From the NCBI RefSeq assembly GCF_900109285.1, contig NZ_FNZQ01000003.1, positions 186,001-250,000 of the forward strand: a DNA stretch of 64,000 nucleotides, read 5' to 3'. Positions 20,919 to 27,296 of this stretch are shown piece by piece. The translations under genes and the position numbers were made by a program. Position 1 is the first letter of the stretch. Each line of letters begins with the position of its first letter. Origin of the DNA: Jannaschia helgolandensis (GTDB lineage Bacteria > Pseudomonadota > Alphaproteobacteria > Rhodobacterales > Rhodobacteraceae). The notes beneath the pieces are model-generated. The model saw only the letters and a program-made list of their open reading frames with translations. It was not told the origin of the DNA and did not search any database.

Positions 20919-22589
20919 ATGCACCGCGCGTTTCTCATCCTTCTGACACTGACGGCATCGGCCCTTTTGGCGGGAGCCGTCTGGTGGACGACGCTGGGCA
21001 CGGCACTCACCGCGCTGGAGGCCAAGGGCCGGTCGGACCTGAGCCTTGCCGCCGACCGTCTGCGGCTGGAGTTGCAACGCGGGCGCGATCTGGCTGTCCT
21101 GTTAGCGGGCGATCCGATCATCGCCCGGTCGATCGCCAATGCGGGCCGTATCGAATACCCGGCCACACGCTTGCAGGGCTTTGCCGACCGGTCGGGTGCA
21201 TCGGACGTGCTGCTGCTGCGCAAGAACGGGGTCATTATCGCCTCTGCTTCCGGTCGTCGGGGCGATCTGTCTGCGACCGGCTGGATGGAGCGGACGCGGC
21301 AGGGGGCGCTGGGCGTCGGCGCGATGCCACCCGACAGCGGGTCGACGGGCCGCATATTCACCCACGCCGCGCCGACGTTCGATGCGCAGGGCAAGGTGTC
21401 GGGCGCGGTGGCCGTGACGCGTGATTTGACGACGCTGGAGCGGAGCTGGCGCGGCGATCCGCAGGCGATCTATTTCACTGACCGGGCGGGCCACGTCGTG
21501 GTGTCGAACCGCGAGGAATTGCTGGGAGGCCCGCCGCCGCAGGAACGCGTCCCGATCCAGGGCTTCGACATCCGGCGGACCGAGATCGGGCGCTATATCC
21601 CGCGCGATGCGCTGCATCTGGAACTGCCGCTGCCGACACTGGATCTGACGGCGGAAATCCTGCTCGACACGGCGCCGGCACGGGCGCTGGCCATTGCGCG
21701 GGCACAAGCGGCGGGCGCAGCGCTTCTGGTGCTGGGCGCATTGCTGGTTTTTCTATGGGAACGCCGTCGCGTACTGGCCCGGGCCAATCTCATGCTGGAG
21801 GATCGCGTGGCCGAGCGCACCGCAGCGCTGACTGCCGAAGTGCGCGACCGGCGCGAGGCGCAGACCGCCCTGACCCGCGCGCAGGCCGATCTGGTGCAGG
21901 CGGGCAAGCTGTCGGCCCTGGGGCAGTTGTCGGCGGGTATAAGCCATGAGTTGAACCAGCCGCTGATGGCGATCCGAAGCTTCGCCCAGAACGGCGCGAC
22001 CTTTCTGGAACGCGGAAATGTCGAGGCAGCAGGCAGCAACCTGACGCGGATCGGCGATCTGGCGGGCCGCATGGGACGGATCATCCGCAACCTGTCGGCC
22101 TTCGCCCGCGCCGAGCCGCAACCGGCGATCGAGACGGATCTTGGGACCGTGATCGAGATCGCGCTGGAAATCACCGAAACGCGGCGGCGTGAAACGGGGG
22201 TGGAGGTGCGACTGGATCTGCCGGAGATGCCGGTTCTGGCGATGGCGGGCGAAGTGCGGATGGCGCAGGTCGTGGTCAACCTGATCTCGAACGCGGTGGA
22301 TGCGATGGCCGGGCGCGAAACACGCTTGCTGACTATCACGCTAAGCGACGGGCCGCCCGCGATCACGGTGCGCGATACCGGGCCGGGGCTGGATAACCCG
22401 GAGGCGATTTTCGACCCGTTCTATACCACCAAGGAGGTGGGCGCCGGGCTGGGGCTGGGCCTGTCTATCAGTTACGGTATCGTGTCCGGTTTCGGCGGCG
22501 CGATCCGGGGCAGCAACGTCGAGGGCGGGGCCGCATTCACGGTCGAATTGCAGCCTGCGGTCGCGGCATGCGACGGGGCGGCGGCATGA
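20919..22589 (+). CDS. dctB: C4-dicarboxylate sensor histidine kinase DctB-like
   Basis: A 556-residue membrane kinase. One N-terminal helix (about 4-28), a periplasmic sensor region of about 230 residues, a second helix (about 265-283), a short coiled linker, then the HisKA domain with His343 in LSAGISHELNQPLMAIRSFAQNG. The ATPase domain has NLISNAVDAMAG, VRDTGPGL, FDPFYTTKEVGAGLGLGLSISYGI. It overlaps dctD by 4 nt and precedes dctPQM, so it probably senses periplasmic C4-dicarboxylates or related acids. Confidence 0.9.
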   Translation: MHRAFLILLTLTASALLAGAVWWTTLGTALTALEAKGRSDLSLAADRLRLELQRGRDLAVLLAGDPIIARSIANAGRIEYPATRLQGFADRSGASDVLLLRKNGVIIASASGRRGDLSATGWMERTRQGALGVGAMPPDSGSTGRIFTHAAPTFDAQGKVSGAVAVTRDLTTLERSWRGDPQAIYFTDRAGHVVVSNREELLGGPPPQERVPIQGFDIRRTEIGRYIPRDALHLELPLPTLDLTAEILLDTAPARALAIARAQAAGAALLVLGALLVFLWERRRVLARANLMLEDRVAERTAALTAEVRDRREAQTALTRAQADLVQAGKLSALGQLSAGISHELNQPLMAIRSFAQNGATFLERGNVEAAGSNLTRIGDLAGRMGRIIRNLSAFARAEPQPAIETDLGTVIEIALEITETRRRETGVEVRLDLPEMPVLAMAGEVRMAQVVVNLISNAVDAMAGRETRLLTITLSDGPPAITVRDTGPGLDNPEAIFDPFYTTKEVGAGLGLGLSISYGIVSGFGGAIRGSNVEGGAAFTVELQPAVAACDGAAA

Positions 22590-23830
22590 CCGATGTCCTG
22601 CTAGTCGAAGACGATCTGAACGTCCGCGACGCGCTGTCCCAGACACTGGAACTGGCGGATCTGAACGTGACGCAGGCGGGCAGCTTCCTGGCCGCACAGC
22701 CGCGCCTGACGCGCGATCTGGCGGGCGTGGTGGTCAGCGATATCCGGATGCCGGGGCGCGACGGGTTCCATCTGTTGGCCTGTGCGCGGCAGGCCGATCC
22801 CGATCTGCCGGTGATCCTTCTGACGGGCGAGGGGGATGTGCCGACGGCGGTGCGCGGCATGTCGGAAGGGGCCTTTGCGTTTCTGGAAAAACCCTGCAAT
22901 CCGGATGAATTGGTGGCGACGGTGCGCCGCGCACTGACCCTGCGCCGCGCGACGCTGGAGGCCCGGCGGGCACGGGGGGCGCAGGAAGGCGGGGACGCGG
23001 CGGCGCGGATGCTGACGGGCGTATCGCCGCAATCGGGTGTGCTGCGGGACACGACCCGGACGGTTGCGCGGGCCTCGGGGGCGGTGCTGATCCACGGAGA
23101 GCCGGGGACCGGCACCTCGAAAGTGGCCGAGGTGATCCACCTTCTTTCGCCGCGTGCGACCGGACCGTTCGTCAAACGCTCCGCCCCCGCACTGGACACC
23201 GCAACGCTGGTCGAAGCGCTGACGCTGGCGCGCGGTGGAAGCCTGTTCGTGGATCATATCGACGCCCTGCCGCGCCCCTTGCAACACCGTTTGCCCGAAG
23301 ACGATGCCCAGACGGATGGCGTGCGGCTTCTGGCCGCGACGAACGCTGATCCGGCGGTGCTGCACCATGCGCTGGATCCGGATCTTTTCTACAGGCTTGA
23401 GGCACTGCGCGTCCATATCACGCCGCTGCGCGACCGGCCCGGCGACGTTCCGGTGCTGTTCCGGCATTATCTGGCGCTGGCCTGCGAACAGGCCGACCTT
23501 CCGGTGCCCGACGTGCCGCCGGACGTGCAGTCCCGCCTGATGGCGCAGAACTGGCCCGGAAATGCACGCGGGTTGATGAACCATGCAATGCGCTACGCGA
23601 TGGGCCTGTCCGACAATCTGACCGTCGAGCCGTCGGAACAGGGCGACAGGCCACGCGCCGGATTGGCGGACCGGATGCGGATGGTGGAACGCTCGATCCT
23701 GATCGAGACATTGACCCGACACAAAGGTCAGGCGACGATGGCGGCGCGCGATCTCGATCTGCCGCGCAAGACGTTTTACGACAAGCTGACGCGGCATGGA
23801 CTGCGGGCGGAGGATTATCGTCCGGACTGA
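22586..23830 (+). CDS. dctD: DctD-type response regulator with degenerate AAA+ domain
   Basis: A 414-residue regulator starting at the ATG (22586) that overlaps the dctB stop. The receiver is intact (phosphoacceptor Asp52 in VVVSDIRMPGRDG, Lys102 in FLEKPC). The central domain aligns with sigma-54 activators but is abnormal: Walker A is GEPGTGTSK with Thr177 in place of Lys, Walker B is GGSLFVDHID with His224 in place of Glu, and the region holding ESELFGHEKGAFTGA is missing (about 50 residues between Walker motifs instead of about 70). LFYRLEALRVHITPLRDRPGDV, NWPGNARGLMNHA and a Fis-like HTH (residues about 370-410) remain. It probably controls dctPQM without remodelling sigma-54 holoenzyme. 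Confidence 0.85.
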   Translation: MTDVLLVEDDLNVRDALSQTLELADLNVTQAGSFLAAQPRLTRDLAGVVVSDIRMPGRDGFHLLACARQADPDLPVILLTGEGDVPTAVRGMSEGAFAFLEKPCNPDELVATVRRALTLRRATLEARRARGAQEGGDAAARMLTGVSPQSGVLRDTTRTVARASGAVLIHGEPGTGTSKVAEVIHLLSPRATGPFVKRSAPALDTATLVEALTLARGGSLFVDHIDALPRPLQHRLPEDDAQTDGVRLLAATNADPAVLHHALDPDLFYRLEALRVHITPLRDRPGDVPVLFRHYLALACEQADLPVPDVPPDVQSRLMAQNWPGNARGLMNHAMRYAMGLSDNLTVEPSEQGDRPRAGLADRMRMVERSILIETLTRHKGQATMAARDLDLPRKTFYDKLTRHGLRAEDYRPD

Positions 23831-23832
23831 CC

Positions 23833-23882
23833 TGTGCAGATTCTCGCACTAAGACGGGGACAACCGTGCGGATTTCCGCACG
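23833..23882. promoter_or_regulatory. Tandem palindromes upstream of dctP (probable DctD sites)
   Basis: Two inverted repeats of the form GTGC-N8-GCAC lie just after dctD. Site 1 (23833-23850, TGTGCAGATTCTCGCACT) is imperfect. Site 2 (23865-23882, CGTGCGGATTTCCGCACG) is a perfect dyad. They share 13 of 18 bases and start 32 bp apart, about three helical turns. Tandem strong/weak DctD sites are known upstream of rhizobial dctA, and these resemble them. Site 2 with the following ATTTTGATTT could alternatively serve as the dctBD terminator. Confidence 0.65.
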
Positions 23883-23977
23883 ATTTTGATTTCGTAGCGT
23901 GAACGTAATGCAGTAACCATTTGAAATATATGATTTTCAGATATCGGCGACTTCTCGCTTTACCCGCTTCGCAACGC

Positions 23978-23993
23978 TGATACCTTTTTTGCA
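23978..23993 (+). promoter_or_regulatory. -24/-12-like sequence upstream of dctP
   Basis: TGATACCTTTTTTGCA has the exact spacing of the sigma-54 consensus TGGCACG-N4-TTGCA and a perfect -12 half, but the -24 half is TGATAC, lacking the second G and the C of TGGCAC. It lies 40 bp before the dctP start codon, a reasonable position. Because the adjacent DctD lacks its sigma-54 contact loop, this may be a relic or chance match. Confidence 0.3.
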
Positions 23994-24032
23994 AGCGTTC
24001 CGGGGAGGGACGCGCGCAAGGGAGATAAATTC

Positions 24033-25040
24033 ATGAAGTATCTGACAACCGCCGCCACTGCGGTGGCTCTGACCATGACGGCGCAGGCTGCTTTCGCAAG
24101 CTGTGAAGCTGGCGAGATCGTCGTCAAGTTCGCGCATGTCACCAACACCGACAAGCATCCCAAAGGCCTTGCCGCCGCCCTGTTCCAGGAGCGTGTGAAC
24201 GCGGAGATGGATGGCATCATGTGTGTCGAGGTCTTCCCGAACTCTACACTCTACAACGATGACCAGGTGCTGGAGGCCATGTTACAGGGCGACGTCCAGA
24301 TGGCCGCCCCGTCGCTGTCGAAATTCGAAGCCTTCACCAAGGTTTTCCAGGTGTTCGACCTGCCATTCCTGTTCCCGAACATCGAGGCGCTGGATACCTT
24401 CCAGCAAGGCGAAGTCGGTCAGGATATGATGAACTCCATGCAGCGCCGCGGCCTGCAGGGTCTGGCATTCTGGCATAACGGTCTCAAGCAGATGTCGGCC
24501 AACAAGGCGCTGATCCTGCCGACGGATGCCGCCGGTCTGAAGTTCCGTGTCCAGCCGTCCGATGTCATCGTCGCGCAGATGGAGGCGATCGGTGTCTCGC
24601 CACAGCCGATGGCCTTTTCCGAGGTCTATGGCGCCCTGCAGACCGGCGTCGTCGACGGGCAGGAGAATACCTGGTCGAACATCTACGGCCAGAAGTTCTT
24701 CGAAGTTCAGGATGGTGTCACCGAGACGAACCACGGTGCGCTGGATTACCTTGTCGTGACCTCGACCGACTTCCTCGACAGCCTTGATCCGGCGGTGCGG
24801 GATCAGATGATGACGATCCTGGCCGAAGTGACGGAAGAACGGAATGCGGCGGTGGGTCAGATCGACCAGGAAGCCCGTCAGGCGGTTCTGGACGCCGGTG
24901 GCGTGATCCGCGAACTGACGCCCGAACAGCGTCAGGCCTGGGTCGATGCGATGAAGCCCGTCTGGGCGAAATTCGCCGATGGCATCGGCCAGGACGTGAT
25001 TGACGCGGCAGTCGCCGTGGGTGCCGCACAGGAGAGCTGA
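24033..25040 (+). CDS. dctP: TRAP transporter substrate-binding protein DctP
   Basis: A 335-residue periplasmic binding protein with a signal peptide (MKYLTTAATAVALTMTAQAAFA). The mature part follows the DctP family closely: IVVKFAHVTNTDKHPKG, YNDDQVLEAMLQGDVQMA, FDLPFLFPN, GLKFRVQPSDVI with the conserved Arg that binds substrate carboxylate, and ALQTGVVDGQENTW. It captures C4-dicarboxylates such as succinate or malate and delivers them to DctQM. A good ribosome site (GGGAGAT) precedes the ATG. Confidence 0.95.
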   Translation: MKYLTTAATAVALTMTAQAAFASCEAGEIVVKFAHVTNTDKHPKGLAAALFQERVNAEMDGIMCVEVFPNSTLYNDDQVLEAMLQGDVQMAAPSLSKFEAFTKVFQVFDLPFLFPNIEALDTFQQGEVGQDMMNSMQRRGLQGLAFWHNGLKQMSANKALILPTDAAGLKFRVQPSDVIVAQMEAIGVSPQPMAFSEVYGALQTGVVDGQENTWSNIYGQKFFEVQDGVTETNHGALDYLVVTSTDFLDSLDPAVRDQMMTILAEVTEERNAAVGQIDQEARQAVLDAGGVIRELTPEQRQAWVDAMKPVWAKFADGIGQDVIDAAVAVGAAQES

Positions 25041-25121: not shown

Positions 25122-25853
25122 ATGGCCGAGCGCTATGTACCGAAAGGCCGACTGGGTCATGTCATTCACAGGTTCGAAGAGATCGCGATCGCCTTCCTGC
25201 TTGGCGTGATGACGCTTCTGACTTTCGTGAACGTGCTGCTTCGATATGTCTTCAACCAATCGGTCATCTGGTCGCTGGAAGTCATCCTGATGCTCTTCGC
25301 CTGGCTGGTTATCTTCGGCGTCAGCTACGCCTTCAAGACGACGTCCAACCTTGGCGTCGATGCCGTGACCGGCCTTCTGCCGACGCGCGGCAAACGCCTT
25401 GCCGCGCTGCTGGCCGGGCTGGTGACCATCGCTTACGCGGCCTTGCTCCTGAAGGGTGCCTGGGACTTCTGGGCCAATTACGGCAACCTGCCGCAGACGA
25501 CGGGCCGCTGGTTTCCGACCGGATTGCAGGACATGCGCCCGCAGGATTACCGCGGCTATACGCCGACGCAACAGGTGCCGATGCTCGACTGGCTGCGCTG
25601 GCCGCTGGAATCCTGGCTGCTGATCGAAGGGGACGAACCCTTCGAGAAATTTCCCCGTGCCATTCCCTTCATGATCATGCCACTGGGTGCGGCGTTGATT
25701 CTGCTCCGCGTGGTGCAGGCCGTCATCGCCATCGCGCGTGGCGAACGCGAAAGCCTGATCGTCAGCCACGAGGCCGAAGATGCGGTTGACGAGGCGGCGG
25801 CGACCCTGCGCGCCTCGGAGTATCCGGCTGAACACGAAGCAGGAAGGATCTGA
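25122..25853 (+). CDS. dctQ: TRAP transporter small permease DctQ
   Basis: A 243-residue four-helix membrane subunit. FLLGVMTLLTFVNVLLRYVF and SLEVILMLFAWLVIFGVSYAFK are the family hallmarks. A longer than usual hydrophilic stretch of about 70 residues (WANYGNLPQTTGRWFPTGLQ onward) lies between helices 3 and 4, as in the longer dicarboxylate-type DctQ proteins. It sits 3 nt before dctM, with which it forms the sodium-driven permease. Confidence 0.93.
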   Translation: MAERYVPKGRLGHVIHRFEEIAIAFLLGVMTLLTFVNVLLRYVFNQSVIWSLEVILMLFAWLVIFGVSYAFKTTSNLGVDAVTGLLPTRGKRLAALLAGLVTIAYAALLLKGAWDFWANYGNLPQTTGRWFPTGLQDMRPQDYRGYTPTQQVPMLDWLRWPLESWLLIEGDEPFEKFPRAIPFMIMPLGAALILLRVVQAVIAIARGERESLIVSHEAEDAVDEAAATLRASEYPAEHEAGRI

Positions 25854-25856
25854 GAC

Positions 25857-27296
25857 ATGGACGTTCTGCTTCTATTCGTGATGATCGTGGGACTGCTTCT
25901 GATCGGTGTGCCGATCGCGGTCAGCCTGGGCTTCAGTTCCATCGTTTTCCTGCTTGCATTCTCGAACACCTCGCTGTCGTCCATTGCCAAGCAATTCTAC
26001 GACTCGATGGCCGAGCATTACACATTGCTGGCCATTCCCTTCTTCATTCTGGCGTCGAGTTTCATGTCCACCGGCGGCGTGGCCAGGCGGATCATCCGGT
26101 TTTCAATCGCCTGTGTCGGCCACTTCCGCGGCGGTCTGGCCATTGCGGGTGTCTTTGCCTGCATGATGTTCGCGGCCCTGTCCGGGTCGTCCCCGGCTAC
26201 GGTGGTCGCCATCGGCACGATCGTTATCGCGGCGATGAAACAGGCCGGATACACCAAGGAATTCGCCGCCGGTGTCATCTGCAACGCGGGCACGCTGGGC
26301 ATCCTGATTCCGCCGTCCATCGTGATGGTGGTCTATGCGTCGGCGACGGATGTGTCGGTCGGCAGGATGTTCCTGGCCGGTGTCATTCCGGGCATTCTGG
26401 CCGGTCTGATGCTGATGATCACGATCTATGTCATCGCGGTGAAACGGAATATGCCCAAGGGTGACTTCGCGGGCTGGGGCGAGGTCGGGGCATCCTTCCG
26501 CGACGCATTCTGGGGTCTGATGCTGATCGCGATCATCATGCTGGGTATCTACGGAATTCCGGGCCTGACGGGTGCGATCTTCACGCCGACCGAGGCGGCG
26601 GCCGTCGCGTCAGTCTATGCCTTCCTTGTGGCGATGTTCGTCTACCGCGACATCGGCCCTCTGGCCCCGGCCCAGGCGCAATCGGTCGGCGCGGCGGTCG
26701 CGGTCGGTATGAACGCGCCGATCGGGACGCCCAAGTCGCTTATGTCTCACCCCCAGGCGCTGGTCACCGCGTTCTTCCATCGCGACACGATTGCCACGCT
26801 TCTGGATGCAGCCAAGCTGACGATCACGCTGATGTTCATCATCGCCAACGCGCTGATCCTGAAATATGTTCTGACCGACGAACAAATTCCGCAGAGCATC
26901 GCGAACGCCATGCTGGGGGTCGGCTTGGGGCCGATCACCTTCCTGATCGCGGTGAATGTCATTCTTCTGATCGGCGGTCAGTTCATGGAGCCGTCGGGCC
27001 TGCTGGTCATCGTCGCTCCGCTGGTCTTCCCCATCGCGATTGAGTTGGGGATCGACCCGATCCATCTGGGCATCATCATGGTGGTGAACATGGAAATCGG
27101 GATGATCACGCCTCCAGTCGGCCTGAACCTGTTCGTCACCTCGGGCGTGGCGGGCATGTCGATGATGGCGGTGGTGAAGGCGGCGCTTCCGTTTCTGGCC
27201 GTACTCTTCGTATTCCTGATCATGGTGACATACATCCCGATCATTTCGACGTGGTTGCCGACGCTGGTGATGGGACCGGAACTGATCATAAAATAG
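25857..27296 (+). CDS. dctM: TRAP transporter large permease DctM
   Basis: A 479-residue polytopic membrane protein forming the translocation channel. Family motifs include VPIAVSLGFSSIVFLLAF, PFFILASSFMSTGGVARRII, FAALSGSSPATVVAIGTIVI, GTLGILIPPSIVMVVYA, TPTEAAAVASVYAF and EIGMITPPVGLNLFV. A hydrophilic insertion of about 45 residues near position 265-310 is longer than in minimal DctM proteins. It is the last gene of the operon and is followed by a terminator hairpin. Confidence 0.95.
   Translation: MDVLLLFVMIVGLLLIGVPIAVSLGFSSIVFLLAFSNTSLSSIAKQFYDSMAEHYTLLAIPFFILASSFMSTGGVARRIIRFSIACVGHFRGGLAIAGVFACMMFAALSGSSPATVVAIGTIVIAAMKQAGYTKEFAAGVICNAGTLGILIPPSIVMVVYASATDVSVGRMFLAGVIPGILAGLMLMITIYVIAVKRNMPKGDFAGWGEVGASFRDAFWGLMLIAIIMLGIYGIPGLTGAIFTPTEAAAVASVYAFLVAMFVYRDIGPLAPAQAQSVGAAVAVGMNAPIGTPKSLMSHPQALVTAFFHRDTIATLLDAAKLTITLMFIIANALILKYVLTDEQIPQSIANAMLGVGLGPITFLIAVNVILLIGGQFMEPSGLLVIVAPLVFPIAIELGIDPIHLGIIMVVNMEIGMITPPVGLNLFVTSGVAGMSMMAVVKAALPFLAVLFVFLIMVTYIPIISTWLPTLVMGPELIIK

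Follow-up and report, generated by a model that had tools for sequence, protein, structure and literature searches.

A DctD regulator without its sigma-54 contact loops and the probable uncoupling of the dctPQM operon from sigma-54 in Jannaschia helgolandensis and other Rhodobacteraceae

The dct locus of Jannaschia helgolandensis was analysed in a window of 64,000 nucleotides (the whole stretch from position 186,001 to 250,000 of contig NZ_FNZQ01000003.1, assembly GCF_900109285.1). The locus consists of a dctB-like sensor kinase gene, the stop codon of which overlaps the start of the response regulator gene dctD (ATGA), an intergenic region with two palindromes, and the genes dctP, dctQ and dctM of a TRAP (tripartite ATP-independent periplasmic) transporter (Table 1). 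The encoded DctD (the form is called DctD1 hereafter) has lost most of the two loops with which bacterial enhancer-binding proteins (bEBPs) are reported to touch sigma-54 and the promoter DNA (PMC7175178). We regard it as likely that this DctD is uncoupled from sigma-54 and, controlled by DctB, activates a sigma-70-type dctPQM promoter from the ancestral enhancer, probably without ATP hydrolysis.

Table 1. Genes and sequence features of the dct locus (positions refer to the window; HTH, helix-turn-helix; ORF, open reading frame)
Feature	Position	Strand	Basis and remarks
dctB-like sensor histidine kinase	20919..22589	+	HisKA, HATPase_c above cut-off; dCache below cut-off
dctD (DctD1)	22586..23830	+	response regulator, 414 aa, AAA+ domain defective; ORF, Pfam, alignment
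Receiver domain, phospho-acceptor Asp52	22595..22924	+	Pfam PF00072, 1.4e-23
Defective Walker A, GEPGTGTSK	23096..23122	+	position 177 not Lys; Lys179, Glu182 present
Site of missing loop 1 (GAFTGA), approximate	23195..23233	+	alignment with L137, L182
Altered Walker B, GSLFVDH	23237..23257	+	orthologue alignment
Fis-type HTH	23675..23794	+	PF02954, 1.1e-07
Putative operator palindrome 1, GTGCAGATTCTCGCAC	23834..23849	.	11/14 consensus places
Putative operator palindrome 2, GTGCGGATTTCCGCAC	23866..23881	.	32 bp from palindrome 1
Conserved IHF-like element between operator and promoter	23913..23932	.	motif discovery, 91 regions; presumed IHF site
Predicted -35, TTTACC	23959..23964	+	CTTTAC in 7/9 printed Jannaschia regions; CTTGAG in other genera
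Predicted -10, TACCTT	23981..23986	+	16 bp past TTTACC; TAnCGT-like in genus, by eye on alignments
dctP, TRAP solute-binding subunit	24033..25040	+	TIGR00787, 260 bits, cut-off 175
dctQ, TRAP small permease	25122..25853	+	position and orthology; no NCBIfam match at 1e-10
dctM, TRAP large permease	25857..27296	+	TIGR00786, 417 bits, cut-off 268

Four Pfam domains were recognised in DctD (Response_reg, residues 4-113; Sigma54_activ_2, 145-281; AAA_lid_14, 282-348; HTH_8, 364-403), and the Sigma54_activat match is broken. Compared with L137 and L182, two relatives that bear GAFTGA, the protein lacks about 19 residues of loop 1 (the ELFGHEKGAFTGA region) and 12 residues of loop 2/pre-sensor I, so that most of loop 2 is missing. 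The Walker A motif runs GEPGTG-T-S-K, with Thr in place of the catalytic Lys and another Lys two positions further, and Walker B reads FVDH, with His where Glu is expected. Two hallmarks of group I bEBPs, GAFTGA and the Walker A lysine, are thus absent, and descent from a DctD/NtrC-type regulator is indicated by the receiver Asp, the AAA lid, the Fis-type HTH, the DctB partner and the dct operon. Loss of loop 1 with retention of HTH and receiver is the pattern of the GAFTGA-less bEBP relatives that act with sigma-70. A previous model-made reading of the letters alone (the sequence-only reading) had noted the preserved Asp52 and Fis-like HTH, and this observation is confirmed.

The same form was found throughout an alignment of 121 orthologues from Rhodobacteraceae (the window, 80 named loci that were the best 80 of 547, 11 further loci of the genus, and 29 of the family; 117 distinct, 103 non-redundant at 95%; the Jannaschia loci L057-L059 and three of the genus genomes have identical DctDs). 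GAFTGA is present in 0/121, and position 177, that of the catalytic Walker A lysine, is never Lys (T 79, I 28, V 8, N 3, S 2, A 1); both losses had been read from the window protein and prove general. The third proposed loss, that of the Walker B glutamate, is true of the window protein only as a local change, since residue 224 is Glu in 102 of the 121 and His in 12. Asp223 is kept in 119 and a sensor II-like Arg328 in 120, and Lys179, Glu182 and the receiver residues Asp52, Thr80 and Lys102 are invariant. The distance between Walker A and B (Lys179 to Asp223) is the same in all 121, and dN/dS (NG86, 8 congeneric pairs) is 0.10-0.17 for the whole gene and 0.14-0.28 for the AAA part, with every domain well below 1. 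The sequence-only reading had suggested checking whether the deletion is conserved and had warned of an assembly error; the deletion is common to all 121, and the identical spacing in 117 distinct sequences, together with the low dN/dS of the whole gene, rules out an error of assembly. Of 149 genomes of the family, 65 gave a match at E 1e-90 or better (counted from the table, with the window and without L138), and 30 of these entered the alignment. Of 240 genomes drawn from across the class, 16 matched the family alignment at 1e-90, three with the DctD1 form (G000, G055, G234; one family), one strongly eroded (G442) and the rest full-length. Gene order is conserved as well: DctD is preceded by a DctB homologue in 80/80 named loci, a DctQ homologue occupies its place in this gene order in 76, and the complete order DctB-DctD-DctP-DctQ-DctM (best matches) is present in 74 (two of the other six, short loci, lack DctM only, and four have no TRAP genes downstream).

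In the window genome (a draft of 3.56 Mb in 14 contigs, 99.56% complete), no rpoN gene for sigma-54 was detected with the profile PF04552, and the best TIGR02395 match reached only 12 bits (E 0.11, cut-off 277); 19 other genomes of the genus gave no match either. Sigma-54 is reported to be missing from Jannaschia sp. CCS1 by Francke et al. 2011 (PMC3162934), who also proposed sigma-70 dependency for a CCS1 enhancer-binding protein with a Thr-to-Glu change in GAFTGA. Across the family, rpoN exceeded the cut-off in 44 of 149 genomes (in G075 barely), and a clear match occurred in 12 of the 65 genomes with a DctD1-type match (the gene of G031 is interrupted). Of the 30 family genomes in the alignment, nine (L013, L014, L017, L018, L021, L023, L024, L031, L032) possess rpoN and share the DctD deletion, so the uncoupling is not a mere result of sigma-54 loss.

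In 109 of the 121 loci dctP follows within 1.3 kb, and these dctD-dctP regions were scanned. A pair of 16-bp GTGCGGA-NN-TCCGCAC-like palindromes, 31-34 bp apart, occurs in 100 of them (score at least 20 of 28) and in 0/1090 mononucleotide-shuffled regions. Palindrome 2 is the sole exact match to GTGYGGANNTCCGCAC in the window genome; five further places match with one mismatch, against three matches of a reversed control pattern. Some of these five (G000 C5 786999, C5 868583, C5 1365547, C7 275843, C8 233121) may, judged by sequence, be additional DctD sites. A general repeat search listed one imperfect inverted repeat elsewhere and not the operator palindromes, probably because their arms are below its minimum length.

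Promoter elements were sought in 91 deduplicated dctD-dctP regions. Downstream of palindrome 2, motif discovery returned an AT-rich element (log-likelihood 505 versus 103-108 in four shuffles), labelled IHF-like after the IHF consensus, which mostly lies about 39 nt past palindrome 2 (67/91 in the 35-44 bins; 15, including the window, at 25-29). A second search (83 of the 91 regions after score and length filters) found CTTGAG followed by TTtacT (log-likelihood 380 versus 108-119), starting 94-98 nt past palindrome 2 in 62/83. TTG[AC] stands at 95-102 nt in 55/91 regions (200 shuffle rounds: mean 5.4, maximum 12), and when 65 of the 91 are aligned on TTG at 95-102, a second block appears at 17-bp spacing (T in its last place, 0.91), with no GG at the -24 distance. 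In Jannaschia, CTTTAC takes this place in 7/9 printed regions, 74-76 nt past palindrome 2 and followed by a TAnCGT-like block; relative to the other genera, one helical turn (about 11 nt) is missing between operator and element, and another between element and promoter. Transcription of dctP in the window is predicted to start near 23993. A candidate degenerate -24/-12 element, TGATACCTTTTTTGCA at about 23978, was rejected, as the genus alignment favours CTTTAC/TAnCGT there. These conserved sigma-70-like blocks, together with the undetected rpoN, strengthen the earlier suggestion that DctD may act on sigma-70 polymerase, activation itself being what we infer.

The contrast with GAFTGA-bearing loci was measured with a sigma-54 promoter score (TGGCACG-N4-TTGCA with an obligatory GG, computed across the entire dctD-dctP gap). 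Among the 91 DctD1 regions the maximum was 9 (two regions) and none reached 10 (shuffled: at least 10 in 7/1820, at least 9 in 137/1820), and no -24/-12 element precedes dctP in the window; with the missing rpoN match, this supports the earlier statement that the protein cannot serve as a classical sigma-54 activator. GAFTGA-bearing DctD loci before dctP reached at least 10 in 10/13 (L137 10, L179 10, L182 11, L186 11, L193 11, L194 11, L232 11, L233 9, L234 10, L238 12, L240 10, L244 9, L255 9), where the gaps of L186, L234 and L238 exceed 900 nt and contain an opposite-strand ORF (dctP of L186 is 912 nt away), and L193 and L194 have GA in place of GC in the -12 element. The Fisher test for scores of at least 10 (the first 12 GAFTGA-bearing loci against the DctD1 regions) gave p 9e-11, a value that is descriptive only because the rows share ancestry. 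All five checked genomes of the 13 loci have rpoN (G004, G652, G461, G760, G863). Other DctDs that adjoin dctP and have a defective GAFTGA scored 7 (L138), 8 (L253) and 6 (L254; GAFPGA in L253 and L254), and a fourth, L142, scored 9, equal to the weakest GAFTGA-bearing loci; the genomes of L253 (G564) and L142 (G130) carry rpoN.

The order of the losses was examined in a tree of 57 rows, built without the alignment columns of Walker A, Walker B and loop 1 (a quick method, with SH-aLRT supports only). The GAFTGA-bearing L137, L193 and L194 form a clade (95) with a GAFTGA-less group (97), in which L138 branches first (80), followed by the eroded L143-L145 and L181 and then by DctD1 (98). L138 has lost loop 1 and retains Walker A as GATGTGKD. 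Since L137, L193 and L194, all from genomes with rpoN, carry the same operator palindrome pair, and L138 a weaker pair (by eye), the operator predates the loss. The eroded proteins (L143, L144, L145, L181; 405-411 aa) keep GxGK, whereas their Walker B is beyond recognition; dctP was not found downstream of their genes.

On these data we propose, tentatively and as something short of an even chance, that living intermediates of a rewiring survive: L193, L194 and L137 with GAFTGA and a sigma-54-type promoter, L138 with loop 1 lost, Walker A intact and no sigma-54-type promoter, and DctD1 with both lost. In a large group of Rhodobacteraceae, this single operon would have passed from sigma-54 to sigma-70 when its promoter was exchanged and the activator lost the two loops that face sigma-54, with the enhancer pair kept. 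The AAA+ domain would be a fossil that needs no nucleotide and, aided by an IHF bend, acts on the housekeeping polymerase as an activator from about 120-150 bp upstream. In the main reading, which we hold to be likely, DctB would sense C4-dicarboxylates and DctD would be phosphorylated at Asp52, bind the two palindromes (with centres some 120 and 152 bp before the predicted dctP start) and activate the housekeeping, sigma-70-type polymerase at the -35/-10 promoter, probably assisted by IHF bending the DNA that separates the two. Its AAA+ domain would no longer contact sigma-54 and would be kept as a platform for assembly or polymerase contact; as the Walker A lysine is gone, ATP hydrolysis has probably been lost.

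Growth data exist for Ruegeria pomeroyi; seven loci titled Ruegeria are among the 121 orthologues, all with the deletion. SPO2630 is annotated there as a C4-dicarboxylate transport sensor protein (PMC4809877) and SPO2626-2628 are named dctMPQ (PMC10130141), with SPO2628 assigned to dctP and SPO2626 to dctM from PMC10041152 and gene order. A table of PMC10130141 gives growth losses on fumarate of 96.9% for SPO2630 mutants, 96.7% for dctP and 99.1% for dctM, and on succinate of 81.8, 75.2 and 92.6%, respectively; malate drawdown was reduced in all three mutants. The phenotypes show that the sensor is needed for uptake, and do not separate activation from relief of repression.

Several observations weigh against a sigma-70-activating DctD. 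The palindrome pair is missing in 9/109 regions, 12/121 genes have no dctP within 1.3 kb, and only 6 of the 12 GAFTGA-bearing loci scanned (all of the 13 but L186) reach a pair score of 20 (L179, as L236, L240 and L244 besides L137, L193 and L194; six do not). A generic sigma-70 consensus scan of 23700-24100 gave no match, the -10 block is weak, and 26/91 regions have no TTG at 95-102 nt; the best match of the window to the family CTTGAG motif has just 2.1 bits, which is why its promoter call rests on the genus alignment. In R. pomeroyi, the growth loss on malate was significant for the SPO2626 mutant alone and not for those of SPO2630 and SPO2628 (PMC10130141), polarity is possible because the mutants are transposon insertions, and the sensor phenotype would equally fit a repressor relieved by phosphorylation.

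Among the other explanations, the one that fares best is a version of sigma-70 activation rather than a competitor to it (our estimates for the two overlap): DctD might depend on ATP binding, as is reported for R. capsulatus NtrC, with the shifted Lys179 supporting the nucleotide. The near-complete conservation of Lys179, Asp223 and Arg328 speaks for it, but Lys is never found at the catalytic place, loop 2 is lost too and the NtrC of the same genome retains GESGTGK, so that we hold this version to be possible though rather doubtful. That DctD represses dctPQM (or is an anti-activator) until phosphorylated, the alternative named by the sequence-only reading, is improbable, and less likely than activation with sigma-70. 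Its DNA-binding part is kept and its activation loops are gone, a TyrR relative is able to repress (PMC3162934), and the R. pomeroyi sensor phenotype suits both; however, some 75-100 bp lie between the end of the operator and the conserved -35, a long way for simple occlusion, GAFTGA-bearing relatives, whose DctD should be an activator, have this operator pair before sigma-54-type promoters, and a weak -10 resembles activator-dependent promoters. We give little credence to the palindromes being a dctD terminator: palindrome 2 with its T-rich tail did score terminator-like in the generic scan of the window (23700-24100), but the tandem pair is conserved in sequence and spacing in 100 regions and, by eye, most printed relatives lack the tail. 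Sigma-54 activation through an unusual contact is highly improbable, since rpoN in nine of the 30 aligned DctD1 genomes is set against its absence from the genus genomes searched and the lack of a -24/-12 element in all 91 regions, and for the window genome it is contradicted unless rpoN lies in the missing part of the draft. A decaying pseudogene or assembly error is scarcely credible, for although conservation is lowest in the AAA part (top-residue frequency 0.64 on average, versus 0.78-0.79 elsewhere) and one matching family genome outside the alignment (G009) has a dctD with an internal stop, the deletion is identical in 121 sequences under dN/dS well below 1, with operon and operator conserved.

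GAFTGA-less bEBP relatives that act with sigma-70 are already well known. The closest precedent, also named by the sequence-only reading, is NtrC of Rhodobacter capsulatus, in which loop 1 is likewise deleted and sigma-70 activation is reported (PMC10274813). The parallel is imperfect, because this nitrogen regulator reportedly needs ATP binding (PMC10274813) and DctD1 has no Walker A lysine. Caulobacter NtrC, TyrR, DhaR, HupR and VpsR, which belong to different systems, are also described as without a working GAFTGA or sigma-54 contact, several of them acting at sigma-70 promoters; the consulted portions of PMC10274813 and PMC3162934 describe no graded series with matching promoter exchange for them, and call the sigma-70 mechanism of Caulobacter NtrC unclear (PMC10274813). 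DctD of sigma-54-dependent dct systems shares with DctD1 the domain order, the DctB partner and the dicarboxylate transport operon, but has GAFTGA in loop 1, loop 2, the Walker A Lys and a -24/-12 target. The best PDB matches of DctD1 include the solved receivers 1l5y and 1qkk of S. meliloti DctD. The best NCBIfam match is the PgtA response regulator (NF047793; 269 bits, model positions 7-414 of 414 covered), and membership was rejected at the curated cut-off of 650. None of 299 genomes of the phylum exceeded that cut-off. The PgtA-like L149 (437 bits, below the cut-off) is GAFTGA-less as well, but differs in GEPGTGRH, an unrecognisable Walker B and a very long tree branch; blastn of the L149 gene against E. 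coli genomes gave no match. No paper on a GAFTGA-less DctD of dctPQM was found by title or abstract start in the open-licence literature, within which a DctD with both loops and the Walker A lysine lost and a matching promoter exchange appears to be new.

The way in which enhancer-binding proteins without GAFTGA work at sigma-70 promoters is still debated, and the dctPQM operon offers natural forms from before, during and after the change with the same binding sites, the parts of which can therefore be swapped. DctD, a switch that governs how marine bacteria take up small organic acids, seems to have been moved to the housekeeping factor with its old DNA sites kept; the name dct is thus no guide to sigma-54 control in these bacteria, which matters when regulation of C4-acid uptake is predicted.

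Other regulators of this type were seen in the same genome and family. Among the bEBP relatives of the window genome, the five read (L001-L005, with the PF00158 matches L006, L008, L009 and L011 set aside) all lack GAFTGA, including the NtrX-like L001 and the NtrC-like L005. L003 (C7 173332-174648, about 11 kb before the window) is a second DctD-like regulator with an intact Walker A (GETGTGKT) and VLEDI at the Walker B place, and similar genes occur in several family genomes. L002 (C12 117579-118052, minus strand) is DctD-like and followed by the palindrome CTGCGGAAATCCGCAG, and both precede a gene resembling a TAXI-type TRAP gene. L004 (C6 18992-19450), which may resemble RtcR, has a sigma-54-activator-type domain with a degenerate GAFTGA region in this genome without detectable sigma-54. 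In 28 Rhodobacteraceae loci (L195-L222), DctD-like regulators have the Thr of GAFTGA substituted (GAFPGA, GAFAGA, GAYPGA, GAFVGA) and no dctP within 1.5 kb downstream; the related L139-L141 stand before what is presumably a TAXI-type TRAP gene, and rpoN was found in 3 of 16 tested genomes of this combined set. Regulators of the L195-L222 type are perhaps a second, parallel escape from sigma-54.

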